34,268 nucleotides of DNA. It comes from Rickettsiales bacterium (GTDB lineage Bacteria > Pseudomonadota > Alphaproteobacteria > Rickettsiales > SXRF01). Positions within the stretch are counted from its first letter, which is position 1. The number at the start of each line of letters is the position of its first letter. The notes under the pieces were generated by a model. It worked only from the letters and a program-made list of their open reading frames with translations. It ran no database searches and had not been told where the DNA came from. The stretch is taken from assembly GCA_947459535.1 (NCBI GenBank), contig CANHDY010000006.1:1-34268 (forward strand), written 5' to 3'. Below, one piece after another: positions 2,151 through 23,203 of this stretch. The translations under genes and the position numbers were made by a program.

Positions 2151-3242
2151 ATGACCGACATCTCCACGCTTCGCACCGAATCGCTTGCTGCCGTTGCTGG
2201 CTGCGCATCTTCGTCTGCGCTGGAAGATCAGCGCGTGGCGCTGCTTGGCAAAAAAGGCAGCATCACCGAAGCACTGAAAACACTTGGGCAGGCGACGCCC
2301 GAAGAGCGCAAAACTCTTGGCGCTGAGCTGAATAAGCTCAAAACCGACATCGCGGACGCGATTGATGCTAAAAAAACGCAGCTTGCGCGCGCCGAACTGG
2401 ACGCGCGCCTTGCGAGCGAAACCATTGATGTGACGCTGCCCGCCGCCCCGGTGCCGCAGGGCAGAATCCACCCCGTGAGCTACGTGATGGAAGAGATCAC
2501 CGCCATTTTCGCGCAGATGGGGTTTCATGTCGCGGATGGGCCGGATATTGAGGATGATTACCACAATTTTGATGCACTTAATATTCCCGCCAGCCACCCG
2601 GCGCGGCAGATGCATGACACTTTCTATTTGAAAGTGTCGGATGACGGATTACGGATGACGGATGACGCAGCGAACACATTTCGTCAACCGTCAACCGTCA
2701 ACCGTCCACTGCTTCGCACCCACACCTCGCCTATTCAAATCAGAACAATGAAGGGCGGCAAACCACCGTTTCGCTTCATCGCTCCGGGCAGCACCTATCG
2801 CTGCGACTACGATCTCACCCACACCCCGATGTTTCATCAGATCGAAGTGTGCATGATTGATAAAAATGTGCATATGGGGCATCTCAAAGGCTGCATCCAT
2901 GATTTTCTGAAAGCGTTTTTCGAGCTGGATGAAGTGCCGCTGCGTTTCCGCCCCAGCTTTTTCCCCTTCACGGAGCCTTCCGCCGAAGTGGATATTGGCT
3001 GCAAGCGCTCGCAGGGCGAGCTGAAGATCGGCGAAGGCTCGGATTGGCTTGAGGTGCTCGGCTGCGGCATGGTGCACCCGAATGTGCTGAAAAACTGCGG
3101 CATTAATCCCGATGAGTGGCAGGGGTTCGCGTTTGGCATGGGGGTGGAGCGCCTCGCCATGCTAAAATATGGCATTCCTGATCTGCGCACCTTCTTTGAA
3201 AGCGATGCGCGCTGGCTGAAACATTACGGGTTCGCGCCATGA
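2151..3242 (+). CDS. pheS: Phenylalanyl-tRNA synthetase alpha subunit, with an in-frame repeat insertion
   Basis: This is the catalytic alpha subunit (363 residues) of the alpha2-beta2 enzyme that charges tRNA-Phe. Visible are the N-terminal coiled-coil arm (residues 1-90), the class II core with [47 protein letters not shown] and the C-terminal motif 3 [22 protein letters not shown]. Residues 162-186, between DTFYLK and LLRTHTS, are extra: family members have only a few residues here. They are encoded by a 72-bp inverted element of four plus four 7-bp units (2639-2710). Reading frame and all catalytic motifs are intact, so the protein is probably active with a surface loop extended by about 20 residues. 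pheT follows after a 109-base gap filled by another repeat. Confidence 0.96.
2639..2710. repeat. Four-unit 7-bp inverted element inserted in frame in pheS
   Basis: The left arm is four 7-bp units (GGATGAC, GGATTAC, GGATGAC, GGATGAC; 2639-2666). A 16-base spacer follows, then four units in the opposite orientation (GTCAACC three times, then GTCCACT; 2683-2710). The total is 72 bp, exactly 24 codons. The same 28+16/17+28 layout is found in aguA at 11572-11644. Confidence 0.85.
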
Positions 3243-3351: not shown

Positions 3352-5769
3352 ATGAAATTCACCTTGAGCTGGCTTAAAGACCATCTGGAAACCACGGCAT
3401 CCATCAGTGAGATTGCACAGAAGCTGACCGCCATAGGACTTGAGGTGGAGCAGATTATCGATCGCAGCGAAAGCCTGAAGTCGTTCACGGTGGCACATAT
3501 TCTCGCCGCCGAAAAACACCCGCAGGCAGATAAGCTGCGCGTTTGCAAAGTGGCGTCGGACGCCGGAGAATTGCAGATTGTCTGCGGCGCGCCCAATGCC
3601 CGCGCCGGCATCTATGTGGCGCTGGCTAAGGAAGGTGCGCTGATTCCCCGTGATGGATTTGTCATCAAAAAAACAAGCATCCGCGGTGTGGAATCAAACG
3701 GCATGCTGTGCTCGGCGGATGAACTGCAGATCGGATTCCCCCCCTCTGCCCCCCCCGCAAGCGGGGGGGATGAAAGGGGGGGCATCATCGAGCTGCCGGA
3801 AAGCAACATAGGCACCCCGATTGCTGAGGTGCTGGGGCTTTCTGACCCGGTGATTGATATCGCCATCACCCCCAACCGCGCGGACTGTCTTGGTGTTCGC
3901 GGCATTGCCCGCGATTTAGCGGCAGCCGGGCTGGGCACGCTCAAACCACTCGCCCCCATCAGCAGCGCAGAAGCTGGCGGTGAATCCCCCATCGGCATTA
4001 CCATTGAAACCGCGAGCTGCCAGCAATTTATCGGTATTACTATCCGTGGTGTGAAAAATGCCCCTTCTCCGAAGTGGCTGGCGCAGCGCCTGGAAGCCAT
4101 CGGCCAGAAACCGATTTCGGCGCTGGTGGATATCACCAACTATTTCACTTTCGACCTTGGGCGTCCGCTGCATGTGTATGATGCGGATAAGCTGAAAGGG
4201 CATCTTACCGTGCGCGGCGCGACTGCCGGTGAGCCGCTCCATGCGCTGAATGACAAGCACTACGAGCTTGAGGAAGGCATGTGCGTGATTGCTGATAGCT
4301 CCGGCGCGGTGGCGCTCGGCGGCATTATCGGCGGCATGGCCACCGGCTGCGACCTCAGCACCCAGAACGTGCTGCTTGAAGTGGCGCTGTTTGATCCGGC
4401 GCATGTGGCGGCGAGTGGCCGCGCGCTGCAGATTGAATCTGATGCACGCTATCGTTTTGAACGCGGGCTGGATGTGGCGTTTCTTGAAGAAGGCGCAAGG
4501 CGCGCAGCGGCGATGATTCAGTCGCTATGCGGCGGCGCAGCCGCAAGGCCAGTCATCGCGGGCAAAACTCCAAATTGGCAGCGCATCATTGCCTTCAACC
4601 CCGAGCGCGTAAAAACCCTCGGCGGTGTCGATATTTCAGCAGAAACCAGTTATGGTATTTTAGAAAAGCTTGGTTTTACCGTCATCCGCCATCCGTCATC
4701 CGTCGTCCCGCCCAGCTGGCGCGCGGATGTGGAAGGCGAGGCAGATCTGGTCGAAGAGATACTGCGCATCCACGGCTATGACCACATTCCGGCAAGCCCC
4801 CTGCCCGCTGCCGGCTTCAACACCAGCGCCGCACGAACTCCCGCGCAGCTGCGCGTGCTTGCAGCGCGCCGGGCGGCGGTCATGCTTGGCTATGATGAAA
4901 CCTGTCATTACTCCTTCATTTCTGAAAAACAGGCGAAGGATTTTGGCGGCCAGAAGCCCCAGCTGGTGCTGCAAAACCCGATCTCTGCCGATTTAAGCGT
5001 GATGCGCCCCAGCCTGCTGCCCGGCCTGCTTGCCAGCGCCCGCAGCAATATCAGCCGCGGCATCAGCGATCTTGCGCTCGCCGAGCTTGGGCTGACATTT
5101 CATGATATCGGCGAAAAAGGTCAGCAGATGGTGCTCGGCGCGCTGCGCGCCGGCCGCAGCAAACATTATGTGTATGGCGCTCAGTTTCAGGAAAAGCGTG
5201 ATTTACTATCCGCCTATGACGCCAAGCGCGAGGCGCTGTTTGTGCTGTCGCAGCTCGGCGTGATGAAGGCCGACATCACCACGAGCGCGCCCGCATGGTA
5301 CCATCCCGGCCGCAGCGGCGCGCTGACACTCGGCGGTAAAATCATTCTCGGCTATTTTGGCGAGCTGCACCCGGCGCTGCTCAGCGCGCATGACATCAAT
5401 GAACCGGCAGTTGCTTTTGAAATTTTCCTTGGCGCGATTTTCGAACCGCGCGCAAAAGGCAAAATGAAACCCGCGCTGAAACGTTCGGACTTCCCAGCCG
5501 TGGAGCGCGACTTTGCTTTCATCGTGGATCAGAAACTTCCTGCGGCGGACATTGAAAAAACCATCCGCGCCGCGGATAAGCAGCTCATCACCGAGGTGCA
5601 GCTGTTTGATGTGTATAGCGGCAAAGGGGTGGATAACGGCAAAAAATCGGTCGCCATCCGCGTGACGCTGCAATCGTTTGAGCGCACGCTGACCGAGGAA
5701 GATATCGCCGCCGCCTCGCGCCAGATTCTGCAGGCCGCTGGCAAGTTTGGCGGCGTGCTGCGGCAATGA
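3352..5769 (+). CDS. pheT: Phenylalanyl-tRNA synthetase beta subunit, with two in-frame repeat insertions
   Basis: The 805-residue beta subunit begins MKFTLSWLKDHLETTASISE and shows the N-terminal tRNA-binding (EMAP-like) domain at about 40-155, B3/B4 editing domain, B5 domain with PPSWRADVEGEADLVEEILR, and the C-terminal anticodon-binding FDX-ACB domain (SDFPAVERDFAFIVD near 705). Length is normal for the family. Two stretches are repeat-derived: residues about 129-144 (FPPSAPPASGGDERGG) come from a C/G-run hairpin, and residues 444-452 (VIRHPSSVV) from four 7-bp GTCATCC-like units. Both fall in loops where homologues vary in length. An SD-like GGGAG at 3340-3344 precedes the ATG. The stop overlaps the next gene by ATGA. 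Confidence 0.96.
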   Translation: MKFTLSWLKDHLETTASISEIAQKLTAIGLEVEQIIDRSESLKSFTVAHILAAEKHPQADKLRVCKVASDAGELQIVCGAPNARAGIYVALAKEGALIPRDGFVIKKTSIRGVESNGMLCSADELQIGFPPSAPPASGGDERGGIIELPESNIGTPIAEVLGLSDPVIDIAITPNRADCLGVRGIARDLAAAGLGTLKPLAPISSAEAGGESPIGITIETASCQQFIGITIRGVKNAPSPKWLAQRLEAIGQKPISALVDITNYFTFDLGRPLHVYDADKLKGHLTVRGATAGEPLHALNDKHYELEEGMCVIADSSGAVALGGIIGGMATGCDLSTQNVLLEVALFDPAHVAASGRALQIESDARYRFERGLDVAFLEEGARRAAAMIQSLCGGAAARPVIAGKTPNWQRIIAFNPERVKTLGGVDISAETSYGILEKLGFTVIRHPSSVVPPSWRADVEGEADLVEEILRIHGYDHIPASPLPAAGFNTSAARTPAQLRVLAARRAAVMLGYDETCHYSFISEKQAKDFGGQKPQLVLQNPISADLSVMRPSLLPGLLASARSNISRGISDLALAELGLTFHDIGEKGQQMVLGALRAGRSKHYVYGAQFQEKRDLLSAYDAKREALFVLSQLGVMKADITTSAPAWYHPGRSGALTLGGKIILGYFGELHPALLSAHDINEPAVAFEIFLGAIFEPRAKGKMKPALKRSDFPAVERDFAFIVDQKLPAADIEKTIRAADKQLITEVQLFDVYSGKGVDNGKKSVAIRVTLQSFERTLTEEDIAAASRQILQAAGKFGGVLRQ
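3736..3782. repeat. C-run/G-run hairpin in frame in pheT
   Basis: Runs of C (3738-3744 and 3750-3757) are mirrored by runs of G (3762-3769 and 3775-3782) around GCAAGC, making a very stable stem. It encodes PPSAPPASGGDERGG between DELQIG and IIELPE, where other PheT proteins have a short linker. Related hairpins lie in trmB and dnaX. Confidence 0.7.
4681..4708 (+). repeat. Solo arm of four 7-bp units in pheT
   Basis: GTCATCC, GCCATCC, GTCATCC and GTCGTCC lie end to end (28 bases) and are read in frame as VIRHPSSVV immediately before PPSWR. This is exactly one arm of the paired elements in pheS and aguA; no opposite arm is seen nearby. Confidence 0.75.
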
Positions 5770-9978: not shown

Positions 9979-10869
9979 ATGACCAACATGCTGCGCCTTG
10001 CCGCCATTCAGATGAAATATGCAGGCACTCCCAAAGCAAGCCTTGCGCATGCGCTCGATATGCTCGGCGACGCGGCAGCTAAAGGCGCGCAGGTGGCATG
10101 CCTGCCGGAACTGTTCCTCACGGATTATTTCTGCCAGGGGCTGGATAGCAGTCGTTTTGACCTTGCCGAGCCAGCAGACGGCGCCACCACACAGGCGCTC
10201 TCTATCCTTGCAAAAAAAACCGGCATGGTCATCGTCAATTCCATTTTTGAAAAAGCCGCCGAGGGGCTGTATTACAACACCGCAGTGGTGATTGATAAAG
10301 ACGGCAGCACCGCTGGCATTTACCGCAAAATGCACATTCCCCACGACCCGCTGTTTGAAGAAAAATATTACTTCACGCCCGGCGATCTTGGCTTTAAGGC
10401 ACACGCCACCAGCGCCGGCAAGCTGGGCACGCTCATCTGCTGGGATCAGTGGTATCCCGAAGGCGCGCGCCTCACCGCCATGCAGGGCGCACACACCCTC
10501 TTCTACCCCACCGCCATCGGCTGGCATCCTTCCGAGAAGCGTGAGTGGGGCGAATCGCAGGTCGATAGCTGGATCACCATCCAGCGCGCCCACGCGATTG
10601 CGAGCGGCGTGTTTGTGTGCGCCGTAAACCGTATCGGCCACGAAATTCCGCCGCAGGGTGGCGATGGCCTTGAATTCTTCGGCAATTCCTTCATCTGCGA
10701 TCCGTATGGCCGCATGCTCGCCCACGCATCGCATGACAAAGAGGAGGTGCTGATTGCTGAGGCCGACCTCTCGCTGGTGGAGCATAAGCGCCGCAACTGG
10801 CCGTTTTTCCGCGACCGGCGTGTGGATGCATATGCGGGGCTGACGTCCCGGTGGACGGATGACAGATGA
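9979..10869 (+). CDS. aguB: N-carbamoylputrescine amidase
   Basis: The 296-residue nitrilase-superfamily enzyme hydrolyses N-carbamoylputrescine to putrescine, CO2 and ammonia. The catalytic triad is visible as Glu44 in LPELFLTDYFCQ, Lys117 in YRKMHIPHDP and Cys154 in LICWDQWYPE; the stretches AIGWHPSEK and EFFGNSFICDPYGR also match AguB. The ATG at 9979 is chosen because it gives the family N-terminus and has CAGGAA nine bases upstream; a TTG at 9940 is less likely. The last residues (RWTDDR) and the stop are encoded by 7-bp repeat units, the left terminus of the four-helix-bundle cassette that begins at 10850. aguA lies just beyond that cassette, so the pair once formed a direct two-gene unit. 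Confidence 0.94.
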   Translation: MTNMLRLAAIQMKYAGTPKASLAHALDMLGDAAAKGAQVACLPELFLTDYFCQGLDSSRFDLAEPADGATTQALSILAKKTGMVIVNSIFEKAAEGLYYNTAVVIDKDGSTAGIYRKMHIPHDPLFEEKYYFTPGDLGFKAHATSAGKLGTLICWDQWYPEGARLTAMQGAHTLFYPTAIGWHPSEKREWGESQVDSWITIQRAHAIASGVFVCAVNRIGHEIPPQGGDGLEFFGNSFICDPYGRMLAHASHDKEEVLIAEADLSLVEHKRRNWPFFRDRRVDAYAGLTSRWTDDR

Positions 10870-11281
10870 CGGATGACAAAAAGAAATATAAAGCTGTTAA
10901 ATCTTTCGAGGATATTGAGGTATTTCGGCGTGCTTATAAAATCTCACTGATTGTCCATAAAACCAGCCTAACCTTTCCACAAATCGAGCAGTATGCACTA
11001 GGCGACCAAATTCGTAGAGCGAGTAAATCTATCTGTGCAAATATTGCGGAAGGCTACGGAAAACAAAAGCAATCACCTGCAGAATTTAAACGTTTTCTCC
11101 TGATGTCATTAGGATCCAGCGATGAAATGAGAGTATGGTGCAGATATTGCTATGATCTGGGCTATATTGTAGAAAATTCATGGCAAGAATGGCGTAATGA
11201 ATACGCTACTATTTCTCGCATGTTACAGGGGTTGATCAATCATCTATGAACTTGTCATCTGTCATCCGTCATCCGTCATCC
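10850..11281. mobile_element. Putative S23/four-helix-bundle cassette with four-unit 7-bp inverted ends
   Basis: The left end is GGTGGAC, GGATGAC, AGATGAC, GGATGAC (10850-10877); the right end is GTCATCT, GTCATCC, GTCATCC, GTCATCC (11254-11281). Both are exactly 28 bases and inverted to each other. The 376 bases between them hold one gene and are visibly richer in A/T than the flanks. No transposase, target duplication or recombinase gene is seen. The arms are the same type as the short elements in pheS, pheT and aguA, so I read this as the gene-bearing member of that family. Confidence 0.65.
10866..11249 (+). CDS. Four-helix-bundle protein (S23 / TIGR02436-like)
   Basis: The 127-residue product contains the family core: FEDIEVFRRAYKISLIVHKT, then LTFPQIEQYALGDQIRRASKS, then ICANIAEGYGKQKQSPAEFK and RFLLMSLGSSDEMRVWCRYC. 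Members are known from intervening sequences in 23S rRNA genes and as relatives of Avd, the accessory protein of diversity-generating retroelements; no enzymatic function is established. The start ATG lies in the third 7-bp unit of the left terminus, so the protein begins MTDDKKK, and it overlaps the aguB stop as ATGA. Its own stop overlaps the aguA start as ATGA. The gene is A/T-richer than its neighbours, which suggests recent arrival. Here it sits in a protein-coding operon, not in rRNA. Confidence 0.88.
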   Translation: MTDDKKKYKAVKSFEDIEVFRRAYKISLIVHKTSLTFPQIEQYALGDQIRRASKSICANIAEGYGKQKQSPAEFKRFLLMSLGSSDEMRVWCRYCYDLGYIVENSWQEWRNEYATISRMLQGLINHL

Positions 11282-12448
11282 TACAGAATGCCCGCCGAGT
11301 GGGAGAAGCAAGCCGCCATCTGGCTCGCATGGCCGCATAATAAAGAAGACTGGCCGGATAAGTTTGAGCCGATTCCCTGGGTGTATGCGGAAATTATTCG
11401 CCATATCGCACGCTCGCAAATGGTGCGCCTCGTGGTGCAGAATGACAAAGAACAAAAACGCGCCACCGACGTGCTGGAGCGCGCCGGCGTGAACATGAAA
11501 CACATCAAGTGGCATGTGATTCCCACCGATCGCATCTGGCTGCGCGATAGCGGCCCGATTTTTGTAAAGCCGGTGGACGGTGGACGGTGGACGGCTGACA
11601 AGAAAAAACAATCGCCGTCATCCGTCATCCGTCATCCGTCATCCGTTATGCTCGACTGGCGTTTTAACGCGTGGGCAAAATACCCCAACCACAAAAAAGA
11701 TGATTTAGTTCCGGAGAAAATTTTTGAATATTTTCGTCATCGCCCGAATCGCCATGGCGATTCTAGGGCGATCCAGCTGGATTCCCCTAGAATTTTGCAA
11801 AAGCAAAATTCGGGGAATGACGTGACTATCATCCAACCGATGCACAAAGGAAAGCGCGTGGTACTGGAAGGTGGCTCTATCGACGTGAACGGCAAAGGCA
11901 CGCTCATTACAACTGAGGAATGTTTGCTCTCCAAAATCCAGTGCCGCAACCCGGGCTTTACGTGTGATGATTATGCTGAGGTGTTTGCAACCTATCTTGG
12001 CATTGATCAGATCATCTGGCTTGGAAACGGCATTGTCGGCGATGATACGCACGGCCATGTCGATGACATCACGCGCTTTGTGAAAGCCGATACGATTGTC
12101 ACGGTGGTTGAGAAAGATAAGCGTGATGACAATTACAGCCTACTGCAGGATAACCTGAAGCGCCTGAAAAAAGCACGCGACGCGAAGGGTAACGCCTTTA
12201 ACATTATTGAGCTGCCCATGCCACGGCCAGTAGTGTTTGAAGGCCAGCGCCTGCCTGCCTCCTATGCCAATTTCCTCATCTGCAACGAGGTCGTGCTGGT
12301 GCCGACCTTTAACGACCCCATGGATAGAATTGCGCTCAATATTCTGGCCGAGTGCTTTCCGAAGCGCGAGGTGGTGGGTATTCATGCGGTGGATCTCGTC
12401 TGGGGGCTGGGCACCATCCACTGCATGAGCCAGCAGGAACCTGCGTGA
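11246..12448 (+). CDS. aguA: Agmatine deiminase with repeat-derived N-terminus and two in-frame insertions
   Basis: The 400-residue enzyme converts agmatine to N-carbamoylputrescine, the substrate of AguB. Key motifs are present: MPAEWEKQAAIWLAWPHNKE, IWLRDSGPIFV, VLEGGSIDVNGKGTLITTEE, GNGIVGDDTHGHVDDITRFV and the catalytic Cys393 in GTIHCMSQQEP. Three parts are repeat-encoded: the first residues (NLSSVIRHPSS), about residues 110-133 (VDGGRWTADKKKQSPSSVIR region), and about residues 164-193 between VPEKIFEYF and TIIQPM. All are in frame and fall in loops or at the end, so activity may be kept. The start at 11246 overlaps the preceding stop; an in-frame ATG at 11288 would give the ancestral MPAEW start but has no ribosome site. 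Homologues are about 340-350 residues, in line with about 50 inserted residues. Confidence 0.92.
   Translation: MNLSSVIRHPSSYRMPAEWEKQAAIWLAWPHNKEDWPDKFEPIPWVYAEIIRHIARSQMVRLVVQNDKEQKRATDVLERAGVNMKHIKWHVIPTDRIWLRDSGPIFVKPVDGGRWTADKKKQSPSSVIRHPSSVMLDWRFNAWAKYPNHKKDDLVPEKIFEYFRHRPNRHGDSRAIQLDSPRILQKQNSGNDVTIIQPMHKGKRVVLEGGSIDVNGKGTLITTEECLLSKIQCRNPGFTCDDYAEVFATYLGIDQIIWLGNGIVGDDTHGHVDDITRFVKADTIVTVVEKDKRDDNYSLLQDNLKRLKKARDAKGNAFNIIELPMPRPVVFEGQRLPASYANFLICNEVVLVPTFNDPMDRIALNILAECFPKREVVGIHAVDLVWGLGTIHCMSQQEPA
11572..11644. repeat. Four-unit 7-bp inverted element in frame in aguA
   Basis: The left arm is GGTGGAC three times and GGCTGAC (11572-11599); a 17-base A-rich spacer follows; the right arm is GTCATCC four times (11617-11644). 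The two arms use different versions of the unit (GGTGGAC versus GGATGAC), as also seen in pheS. The total is 73 bp, against 72 in pheS; the frame is kept by adjacent bases. Confidence 0.85.
11736..11823. repeat. GTCAT...ATCCAG / CTGGAT...ATGACG doublet in frame in aguA
   Basis: The first hairpin (11736-11776) is GTCATCGCCC, then GAATCGCC/GGCGATTC, then GGGCGATCCAG. The second (11777-11823) is CTGGATTCCCC, AATTTTGC/GCAAAATT, then GGGGAATGACG. The two abut head to tail. They encode about 29 residues of AguA (from RHRPNRHGDSRAIQLD to about GNDV) absent from homologues. Confidence 0.85.
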
Positions 12449-19618: not shown

Positions 19619-20330
19619 CACGGTGCTGGTGGTGGGTGCCACTTCCTCGATGGCTCAGGTGGTGTGCCGCGAGCTGGCCATGCGCGGCTATAAGCTGGTG
19701 CTGGTCGGGCGCGATGAAACAGAGCTGGAGCTGCTCGCCGCCGACCTGCGCACACGCAGCAGCGCCAGCTGTCGCACACAGGTGGCCGATGTAGCGGATT
19801 CAGGCTTTTCCTGCGAGCAGCTGCTGGGCGCGGCAGGCGCGTTCAACCATGCGCTGATCACGCTTGGCGATATGGGCAGCGGCGCTGATGATGCCGCTAA
19901 TCTTAACGCTGTCACACAGCTGAACTATCTCGCACCAGCCGCACTGGCGGCAGCGGCAGCGAGCCGCCTTGCCGAATCAGGCGGCGGGGTGGTGGCATTG
20001 GTCAGCTCGGTGGCGGGGGATCGCGGCCGCGCGAGCAACTATGTTTATGGCAGCGCCAAGGCCGCACTTTCCAGCTTTGCTTCTGGCCTGAGAAATCGCT
20101 ACGCCAAGCTTGGCGTGCATGTGCTGACCATCAAACCCGGCTTTGTCGACACCCCCATGACCTGGGGCATGACAAGCCCGCTGATCGCCAGCCGCGAGCG
20201 TGTCGCGCGCGATATCGTGCGTGCCATGGAAACAAAACGCGATATTCTCTACACGCCATGGTTCTGGCGCCTCATCATGGGCATTATCCAGCACATTCCT
20301 GAGCGTGTGTTTAAGAAGCTGAAATTGTAA
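19605..20330 (+). CDS. SDR-family reductase, DprE2-like
   Basis: The 241-residue short-chain dehydrogenase has a nucleotide-binding VVGATSSMAQVVCRELA loop, the catalytic Ser in SSVAGDRGR, the YGSAK active-site Tyr/Lys and PGFVDTPM. Its C-terminus, ILYTPWFWRLIMGIIQHIPE followed by RVFKKLKL, mirrors the DprE2 tail (membrane-proximal helix then HIPxxxFxKL), which sets it apart from general SDRs. DprE2 reduces the 2'-keto intermediate made by DprE1 to polyprenylphospho-arabinofuranose. The ATG at 19605 overlaps the AftB-like gene by 14 bases; an ATG at 19593 (MSISMKQ) is an alternative. The stop is followed at once by a 9-bp-unit palindromic element. Phosphoribosyl transferase (UbiA-like) and phosphatase genes needed to make the substrate are not in the window. 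Confidence 0.87.
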   Translation: MKQNDTVLVVGATSSMAQVVCRELAMRGYKLVLVGRDETELELLAADLRTRSSASCRTQVADVADSGFSCEQLLGAAGAFNHALITLGDMGSGADDAANLNAVTQLNYLAPAALAAAAASRLAESGGGVVALVSSVAGDRGRASNYVYGSAKAALSSFASGLRNRYAKLGVHVLTIKPGFVDTPMTWGMTSPLIASRERVARDIVRAMETKRDILYTPWFWRLIMGIIQHIPERVFKKLKL

Positions 20331-20416
20331 GTTGCGTAAGTTGCGAAGGTTACGCAGGTTGCAAAGGTTGATTGCCAAACCTACGAAACATCCGTAACCT
20401 CCGCGACCTACGCAAC
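20331..20416. repeat. Palindromic element of four plus four 9-bp units (copy 1)
   Basis: Left units are GTTGCGTAA, GTTGCGAAG, GTTACGCAG, GTTGCAAAG (20331-20366). A 14-base spacer GTTGATTGCCAAAC follows. Right units are CTACGAAAC, ATCCGTAAC, CTCCGCGAC, CTACGCAAC (20381-20416). The total is 86 bp. It exactly fills the gap between the convergent stops of the DprE2-like gene and recR, so it could act as a two-way terminator or spacer. Confidence 0.85.
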
Positions 20417-20417
20417 C

Positions 20418-21008
20418 TCAGAATGGCAATCTCGCCTTCAGCGCTGCGCCAAGCGTGCCATCATCGAGATAATCCAGCTCGCCGCCCATCGGAATACCCT
20501 GCGCGAGGCGTGAAATCGACACCGCGCAATTTTCCAGCCTGCCGGTTAAGTAATGAGCGGTGGTCTGGCCTTCGATGGTGGCGTTGGTGGCGAGAATAAT
20601 CTCTTTCACCTGCTCGCTGGCCGCGCGGCGAATGAGCGGTTCAATGTTCAGTTGCGCCGGCGTTCGATCATCCAGCGCGGAGAGCGTGCCGCCAAGCACA
20701 TGGTACTGGCCGCGATACAGATTGCAGCGCTCAATCGCCCACAAATCCGCCAGATCCTCCACCACGCAGATGACCGAGCCATCGCGCCGCGCATCGCTGC
20801 AGATGCTGCATGGGCTGATGGTATCGAGATTGCCGCAGCTGGCGCACGGGATGACTTTCTGCATCGTGCGGGTGATCGCATCCGCGAGCGGCGCCATCAT
20901 TTTTTCTTTATGGCGCACCAGCTGCAGCACAATGCGTCGCGCCGAGCGCGGCCCCAGCCCGGGCAATCTGGCAAAAAGGCGGATCAGTTCGTCGAGTTCG
21001 TGGGACAT
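20418..21008 (-). CDS. recR: Recombination mediator protein RecR
   Basis: The 196-residue protein starts MSHELDELIRLFARLPGLGP with the helix-hairpin-helix, has a zinc finger (CASCGNLDTISPCSIC, residues about 55-70), a Toprim domain beginning ICVVEDLADLWAIE, and the C-terminal ISRLAQGIPMGGELDYLDDG-type Walker-B-like motif. RecR works with RecF/RecO to load RecA at gaps. Length is normal. It is last in ffs-dnaX-ybaB-recR. A palindromic element starts seven bases before its ATG, and no purine-rich ribosome site is visible on the coding strand there (CCTCCTGA instead), so initiation may depend on coupling or on the repeat. Confidence 0.96.
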   Translation of the reverse strand: MSHELDELIRLFARLPGLGPRSARRIVLQLVRHKEKMMAPLADAITRTMQKVIPCASCGNLDTISPCSICSDARRDGSVICVVEDLADLWAIERCNLYRGQYHVLGGTLSALDDRTPAQLNIEPLIRRAASEQVKEIILATNATIEGQTTAHYLTGRLENCAVSISRLAQGIPMGGELDYLDDGTLGAALKARLPF

Positions 21009-21015
21009 TCAGGAG

Positions 21016-21105
21016 GTTTCGAAAGTCTGGTTGGTTTCGTAGGTTGCGAAGGTTAAGCAAACAGTTCACTTGCGAAACCTACGAAACATCCGAAACCTAC
21101 GCAAC
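21016..21105. repeat. Palindromic element of four plus four 9-bp units (copy 2)
   Basis: Left units are GTTTCGAAA, GTCTGGTTG, GTTTCGTAG, GTTGCGAAG (21016-21051). The spacer is 18 bases. Right units are TTGCGAAAC, CTACGAAAC, ATCCGAAAC, CTACGCAAC (21070-21105). The right arm matches copy 1 unit by unit with few changes. It fills the gap from seven bases before the recR start to one base before the ybaB stop. Confidence 0.83.
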
Positions 21106-21106
21106 C

Positions 21107-21427
21107 TTAAAACGGTAATTTGATGCCCGGCGGCAGATTAATGCTTTTGCTGAGGCGGTTCATTTCTTCGGTGGTGGTGCTATCGACCTTCTCACGTGCA
21201 TTACGGTAAGCGGCAATGATGAGATCTTCGAGCGTTTCTTTTTCTTCGGGCTTCAGCAGCTCAGCATCAATGTTCACGCGCAGCATTTCATGCTTACCGG
21301 TGATGGTCATGCTCACCGCGCCGCCGCCGCTGCTGCCTTCAAAGTGGCTGGCTTCCAGACGCGACTGCATCTCGGTCATCCGGCTTTGCATTTCCTGTGC
21401 TTGTTTCATCATTTTCTGTAGATTCAT
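21107..21427 (-). CDS. ybaB: YbaB/EbfC family nucleoid-associated protein
   Basis: The 106-residue protein has the expected N-terminal coiled-coil (MNLQKMMKQAQEMQSRMTEM) and core with GGGAVSMTITGKHEMLRVNI, KETLEDLIIAAYRNAREKVD and C-terminal LPPGIKLPF. It forms a dimer that binds DNA without strong sequence need. It lies between dnaX and recR as in most proteobacteria. The start has AGAGG about seven bases upstream. The gap to dnaX is only nine bases, the one junction in this operon without a repeat element. Confidence 0.94.
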   Translation of the reverse strand: MNLQKMMKQAQEMQSRMTEMQSRLEASHFEGSSGGGAVSMTITGKHEMLRVNIDAELLKPEEKETLEDLIIAAYRNAREKVDSTTTEEMNRLSKSINLPPGIKLPF

Positions 21428-23107: not shown

Positions 23108-23110
23108 GAG

Positions 23111-23196
23111 GTTTCGTAGGTTTCAAAGGTTTCGAAGGTTTCGTAGGTTTGCCTAGTAACCTGCGCAACCTGCGCAACTTACGCAACCTCTGAAAC
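23111..23196. repeat. Palindromic element of four plus four 9-bp units (copy 3)
   Basis: Left units are GTTTCGTAG, GTTTCAAAG, GTTTCGAAG, GTTTCGTAG (23111-23146). The spacer is GTTTGCCTAGTAAC (14 bases). Right units are CTGCGCAAC, CTGCGCAAC, TTACGCAAC, CTCTGAAAC (23161-23196). The total is 86 bp, identical in layout to copy 1. It fills the space between the SRP RNA and dnaX and forms the dnaX 5' leader. Confidence 0.85.
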
Positions 23197-23203
23197 CTTT
23201 TTA

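Follow-up and report, generated by a model that had tools for sequence, protein, structure and literature searches.

S23 genes with inverted tandem-repeat arms, a candidate family of compact mobile elements

Introduction

S23 proteins are four-helix-bundle proteins that can be encoded within 23S rRNA genes, in intervening sequences (IVS). Why would an S23 gene lie between two protein-coding genes instead, framed by short tandem repeats that face each other in opposite orientations? This question is raised by the window, a 34,268-nucleotide stretch from the genome of a Rickettsiales bacterium (G000; 1.89 Mb and 98% complete). An earlier note on this DNA had proposed that the gene and its repeats are akin to 23S IVS elements, that they belong to a dispersed family of inverted-arm elements, and that the shorter members of this family derive from S23 cassettes.

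We compared the locus with the rest of its genome, with related genomes, and with S23 genes from other bacteria. The comparisons suggest that S23 cassettes are common among bacteria and have gone largely unrecognised as a family of what may be tiny mobile elements. Under our main reading, an S23 gene and its heptad arms would form a compact mobile element whose arm unit is specific to its lineage; the gene-less copies would be non-autonomous; and the 23S IVS would be one special case. We give this reading a probability of about 0.6. Its support is all comparative and comes from genome sequences.

Results

The S23 cassette between aguB and aguA

The gene at 10866..11249 (plus strand) encodes a 127-amino-acid protein, P0001, which matches both TIGR02436 (105.6 bits) and PF05635 (23S_rRNA_IVP; 106 bits, with a cut-off of 33.8). 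It lies between aguB and aguA, outside any 23S rRNA gene. The left arm of the cassette (10850..10877) consists of four heptads of the form GTCNNCN when read on the minus strand (GTCATCC, GTCATCT, GTCATCC, and GTCCACC), and the right arm (11254..11281, plus strand) has GTCATCT followed by three copies of GTCATCC. Each arm is 28 nt long, and the coordinates agree with those in the earlier note. When we shuffled the window 50 times, we found no arrays with three or more perfect heptads. Two details needed correction. The left arm had been described as four copies of GGNNGAC, which fits three of the units, but the other one is AGATGAC. Also, the arms do flank the gene on both sides, but the left arm overlaps its start: this arm contains both the start codon of S23 (10866) and the stop codon of aguB (10867-10869).

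The AlphaFold model of P0001 (pLDDT 94) is most similar to PDB entries 2gsc and 2rld, and then to 4dwl, which is the Avd protein of diversity-generating retroelements (TM score up to 0.83 by target length). P0001 also has a hit to NF033474 (E = 2.6e-4) that is under the curated cut-off for that family. We recognised no catalytic domain in S23.

Gene-less and solo copies in the same genome

Shorter elements that have the same arms but no gene lie at the positions that had been claimed for them. One is within pheS (2639..2710), with arms at 2639-2666 (minus strand) and 2683-2710 (plus strand) around a 16-nt spacer. Another is within aguA (11572..11644), with arms at 11572-11599 (minus strand) and 11617-11644 (plus strand) around a 17-nt spacer. 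Both of these are in frame. In pheT, there is a solo four-unit arm (4681..4708, plus strand). (Coding insertions appear to use unit variants such as GGTGGAC and GGATTAC, seen within the arms at 11572-11599 and 2639-2666, which lack the TGA stop codon of GGATGAC; this would be expected if selection keeps the reading frame open.)

Across G000, the two-unit pattern GTCATCCGTCATC had 72 matches with at most one mismatch, as compared to 1 match for the reversed control. Besides the cassette, G000 contains around 20 elements with the GTCATCC unit that lack a gene or are solo arms, which bears out the proposal that the cassette is the gene-bearing member of a dispersed family. These copies are either paired arms, with spacers of around 15 nt upward, or solo four-unit arms, and many are in frame within long ORFs. 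Among the 27 distinct GTCATCC arms in the G000 loci that we examined, 22 have exactly four units. Every inverted pair that was readable in the match lists runs from GGATGAC to GTCATCC, and none is reversed.

G000 has six S23 genes, as identified with TIGR02436. The absence of arms from other S23 genes would have counted against the proposal, and indeed none of the remaining five has GTCATCC arms; but all five have inverted tandem arms of their own, with a different 7-, 8-, or 9-mer unit. These units are CACTAGC-type, CGTGGTT-type, ATCATTC-like, and, for two genes (L003 and L004), the 9-mer NCGNAACCT. The second of the two 9-mer-armed genes is close to the end of a contig. The 9-mer is also dispersed, with 69 matches in G000 (3 for the control). 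These include the L003 and L004 cassettes and three gene-less elements with inverted arms in the window, at 20327..20418 (with the unit NCGNAACCT that L003 and L004 share), 21012..21107 (the left boundary is approximate), and 23109..23198. The 9-mer pairs that were readable in the match lists likewise have a single polarity.

Armed S23 genes in diverse bacteria

To detect arms of any sequence, we compared the left flank of each gene to the reverse complement of its right flank and required a score of at least 15. By this measure, 77% of 116 S23 genes had inverted flanks, and none of 181 control ORFs taken from these loci did. In a wider survey, 165 of 210 S23 genes had arms. Arms were found for 65/68 S23 genes from the same order, 45/63 from across the phylum, and 55/79 relatives of P0001 from other collections, which include Bacteroidota, Cyanobacteria, Omnitrophota, and Gemmatimonadota. 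Most of the armed genes (131) have a repeat period of 7; the period is 8 for 23 genes and 9 for 5 genes. The polarity is fixed: in 156/165 cases, the arm upstream of S23 has more G than C.

For about one fifth of the surveyed S23 genes, arms were not detectable. Three S23 genes from cyanobacterial plasmids (L347, L348, and L349) are in ordinary operons, with an integrase or TrbI neighbour, and apparently do not have the cassette layout; such genes have possibly been domesticated, or S23 has a different role there. We found no relatives of S23 in phage records. A Gemmatimonadetes locus (L108) encodes a protein that is about 35% identical to P0001 and has GTCATCC arms (1874-1901 and 2399-2426) in the opposite polarity.

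The arm unit tracks the protein. Leaving out pairs with homologous flanks, the mean distance between units of 7-mer arms was around 3.3 if the proteins were under 50% identical and 1.3 if they were at least 80% identical. Shared descent of whole cassettes suffices to explain this coupling, so it does not by itself prove that the protein binds the unit. As for movement, two pairs of similar cassettes (L118/L119 and L329/L336) were rejected as relocations, as their flanks are homologous, which implies vertical descent. In Nostoc, L133 is 89% identical to L136/L139 and the flanks differ, so this apparent relocation stands.

Eight of the S23 loci lie within 23S rRNA, as confirmed with Rfam, and have CAG-type heptad arms. 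These arms have 4-5 heptads each and pair nearly perfectly; at L069, for instance, the pairing is almost perfect even though the left and right units differ. Few proteins are closer to P0001 than those from rRNA loci, whose aligned sequences are 59-67% identical to it, which supports the proposed kinship of the cassette to 23S IVS elements.

Empty, full, and deleted sites

If the cassette is mobile, then relatives might have empty sites. In another member of the same genus (G001), the aguB-aguA junction is just 48 nt and has no cassette, and the junction is short and empty (38-67 nt) in ten genomes of the family. G001 also lacks the aguA element, and the pheS element is missing from G001 and from other relatives. 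But a more distant relative (G009, locus L087) also has this cassette at aguB-aguA, with a frameshift in its S23 gene, so this site has been either hit or inherited patchily. Thus, the empty sites that had been suggested as a check do exist, alongside a shared occupied one. In G008 and G015, the junction contains some other inserted sequence. Comparison with the empty sites of G001, for the cassette and for the pheS and aguA elements, did not let us define a target-site duplication.

A second site was more informative about short copies. In the genus of G140 (which we call g77), the junction of acd and mmsB (these gene names are tentative) is empty in 28/50 cases, and many others have a full cassette with TAGGCAG arms. 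At three of these junctions (L365, L380, and L381), both arms were kept and the S23 gene is internally deleted. This is direct evidence at one site for the proposed origin of short copies; in G000, we did not see such derivatives. Other acd-mmsB junctions in g77 contain differently-built elements. The arrays at this site differ in length between species, the shortest having 2 units and the longest 12 or more, and at L364 and L370, the unit has drifted in some arms while the partner arm is unchanged. (At L355 and L356, the junction that holds S23 cassettes in other species is filled by a palindrome, ATGCATGTCGCCCAAAAGTGC..., that is unrelated to them.)

TAGGCAG arrays are present in 59 of the 81 g77 genomes, with zero matches for the control, and S23 is present in 67. 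Arrays were also found in 8 of the 14 genomes without S23. Where a sampled S23 gene carries the TAGGCAG unit, the median number of copies elsewhere in the genome is 10, as compared to 2 and 3.5 in the comparison groups (one-sided p = 0.03 each); this is a modest link, with no phylogenetic correction and with only some of the S23 genes in each genome sampled. The S23 genes at the acd-mmsB site are under purifying selection (dN/dS of about 0.07 across 44 pairs), so the resident copies stay functional.

Discussion

Relation to known systems

The cassette shares its plan with the 23S IVS of Coxiella burnetii, which has one S23 ORF within inverted terminal repeats and a stem of 28 bp, the length of four heptads; the stems of such IVS are cut by RNase III (PMC4990558). 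Unlike those elements, the G000 cassette lies between protein genes, has recognisable tandem heptads, and has gene-less copies with the same unit dispersed around the genome.

The cassette also resembles REP sequences and REPINs with their RAYT transposases, where a gene lies within inverted short repeats, there are gene-less inverted pairs and solo arms, and the repeat unit tracks the protein lineage. As with REP sequences, the repeats that flank S23 also form gene-less inverted pairs in G000. But S23 does not belong to the Y1 (HUH) transposases, and none is detectable in G000 (0 matches to PF01797, Y1_Tnp). Also, the arms of S23 are tandem 7-9-mers, while REPs are small hairpins. Another parallel is with the palindromic elements of Rickettsia, which are short palindromic inserts that are tolerated in frame within proteins. 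G000 proteins have in-frame palindromic inserts as well, and we liken the two by description only. By the same standard they are set apart, as we know of no Rickettsia palindromic element with tandem heptad arms or with an S23-bearing form.

Dispersed heptamers have been described before, in Xanthomonas, in Nostoc, and as the STRR sequences of cyanobacteria. Rehm et al. reported arrays of GGGAATC in Xanthomonas and GGGGATT in Nostoc. The arrays in that study are preferentially four units long and include inverted pairs (many of them in Xanthomonas), and the authors accounted for them by G-quadruplexes; they reported neither a link to S23 nor an association with mobile elements (PMC4692102). 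S23 genes of Nostoc in our survey have arms like ATTGGGC or GGGGATT. The GTCATCC arrays show the same preference for four units without G-tracts. Our search of the literature, which covered papers other than subscription papers and preprints, found no link between S23 and heptamer arrays and no mention of TIGR02436.

If our main reading is correct, then it would join three phenomena that are handled apart or left unexplained in the papers cited here: S23 genes in 23S rRNA with complementary ends, the litter of four-unit heptamers, and some of the in-frame palindromic inserts. Those papers leave the function of the S23 protein open, and asking whether it binds the heptads around its own gene would be a direct test of its role.

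Alternative explanations

Do the arms act mainly as a hairpin in the transcript? RNase III would cut the stem, which would free the S23 mRNA or remove the insert and so let cassettes and short copies persist; S23 would bind the cut RNA, and movement would be rare or passive. Within rRNA, this fits the known cleavage of IVS stems and the near-perfect pairing of arms whose units differ, and G-rich left arms are also consistent with it. Armed S23 genes that lie between co-directional genes are mostly in the sense orientation (99 versus 8), but ordinary genes have a similar bias (206 versus 32). In G000, units differ by 0.83 mismatches within an arm, 1.29 between partner arms, and 1.20 between random arms of the family. 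Because partner arms are no closer than random ones, the hairpin is not strictly maintained outside of rRNA, and selection for a perfect hairpin there is unsupported. The greater likeness within arms suggests that each arm evolves separately, which favours recognition of repeated sites over strict selection for a hairpin. (We discounted a positive-looking test of arm register because its segments had been chosen by the alignment itself.) The one-sided drift at L364 and L370 also argues against this explanation, as does the fact that excision would destroy a coding mRNA. Overall, we consider it unlikely.

We think it quite improbable that the arms are simple repeats born by slippage, or G-quadruplex motifs, with some regulatory use, and that S23 is an ordinary small gene among them. 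The varying number of units at the acd-mmsB site, the purifying selection on S23, and the explanation given for the four-unit heptamers of Xanthomonas and Nostoc could all be cited in its favour. However, S23 genes are associated with arms far more often than control genes are, the units track the protein, all of the readable inverted pairs have one polarity, and slippage would explain neither the empty sites nor the inverted partners. G-quadruplexes were rejected as the cause of the four-unit preference: neither GTCATCC nor GGATGAC has GGG, so the needed G-tracts are missing.

Alternatively, a reverse transcriptase might mobilise the cassettes in trans, as Avd acts with the enzyme of a diversity-generating retroelement. 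The similarity of the modelled four-helix fold to Avd, along with the sub-threshold hit to NF033474, is what suggests this. But we found neither a reverse transcriptase nor a template or variable repeat alongside S23; RVT_1 has 0 matches in G000, whose genome is 98% complete, and is present in only 3 of 29 S23-positive relatives. We view this explanation as very improbable. With both enzymes undetected in G000, neither a reverse transcriptase nor a Y1 transposase is a plausible mover there.

A proposed mechanism

For the mobile-element reading, the genomes show the architecture, its generality, the lineage-specific units, the polarity, the empty sites, the internally deleted derivatives, and the gene-less copies, and the structure and comparative history of S23 cassettes are well supported. 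From these patterns we infer arm recognition by S23 and strand joining, and we offer the following mechanism as a hypothesis. S23, probably in oligomeric form, would recognise the units of its own arms, which would act as a series of binding sites and mark the ends of the element. Pairs of arms without a gene would then be moved in trans, much as MITEs and REPINs are. Since S23 has no recognised catalytic domain and neither a reverse transcriptase nor a Y1 transposase was detected in G000, the chemistry of strand transfer would come from host enzymes for replication, repair, or RNA, or from some other partner. The classical 23S IVS would be the same element inserted in rRNA, where RNase III cuts the paired arms; within protein genes, elements would persist where they lie at operon junctions or are translated in frame as peptides. 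The strong purifying selection on long-resident S23 genes also fits a function for the host.

More tentatively, these cassettes could be a distinct and widespread class of mobile element with no transposase of a known type, in which S23 reads the heptads at the ends and host enzymes move the element; the IVS and the heptamers of cyanobacteria and xanthomonads would be their remains. We see this stronger claim as possible and lean against it for now.

Other insertions in and around the arms

The variable loops of PheS and PheT contain different inserts in relatives, at L147 (pheS of G015) and L157 (pheT of G001), which suggests that insertions have landed in these loops repeatedly. We had considered a single unit, GTCATCCC, in the pheT of G001 as a "seed" for an array, but the unit seems to be the edge of another palindromic insertion there, so we dropped this idea.

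In pheS, a hairpin with a 9-bp stem (GACACTTTCTATTTGAAAGTGTC, 2616-2638 in the window) adjoins the outer end of the arm, and its second half is absent in relatives. Stems of at least 6 bp adjoin 5/27 outer ends of arms and 0/27 inner ends, as compared to 2.2% of random positions; at L025, there is an abutting stem on both sides. Finally, aguA contains a second and unrelated insert, GATTCCCCTAGAATTTTGCAAAAGCAAAATTCGGGGAATGACG, at around 11732-11825 in the window, and its translated relatives are found on three contigs of G000 (C83, C79, and C11).
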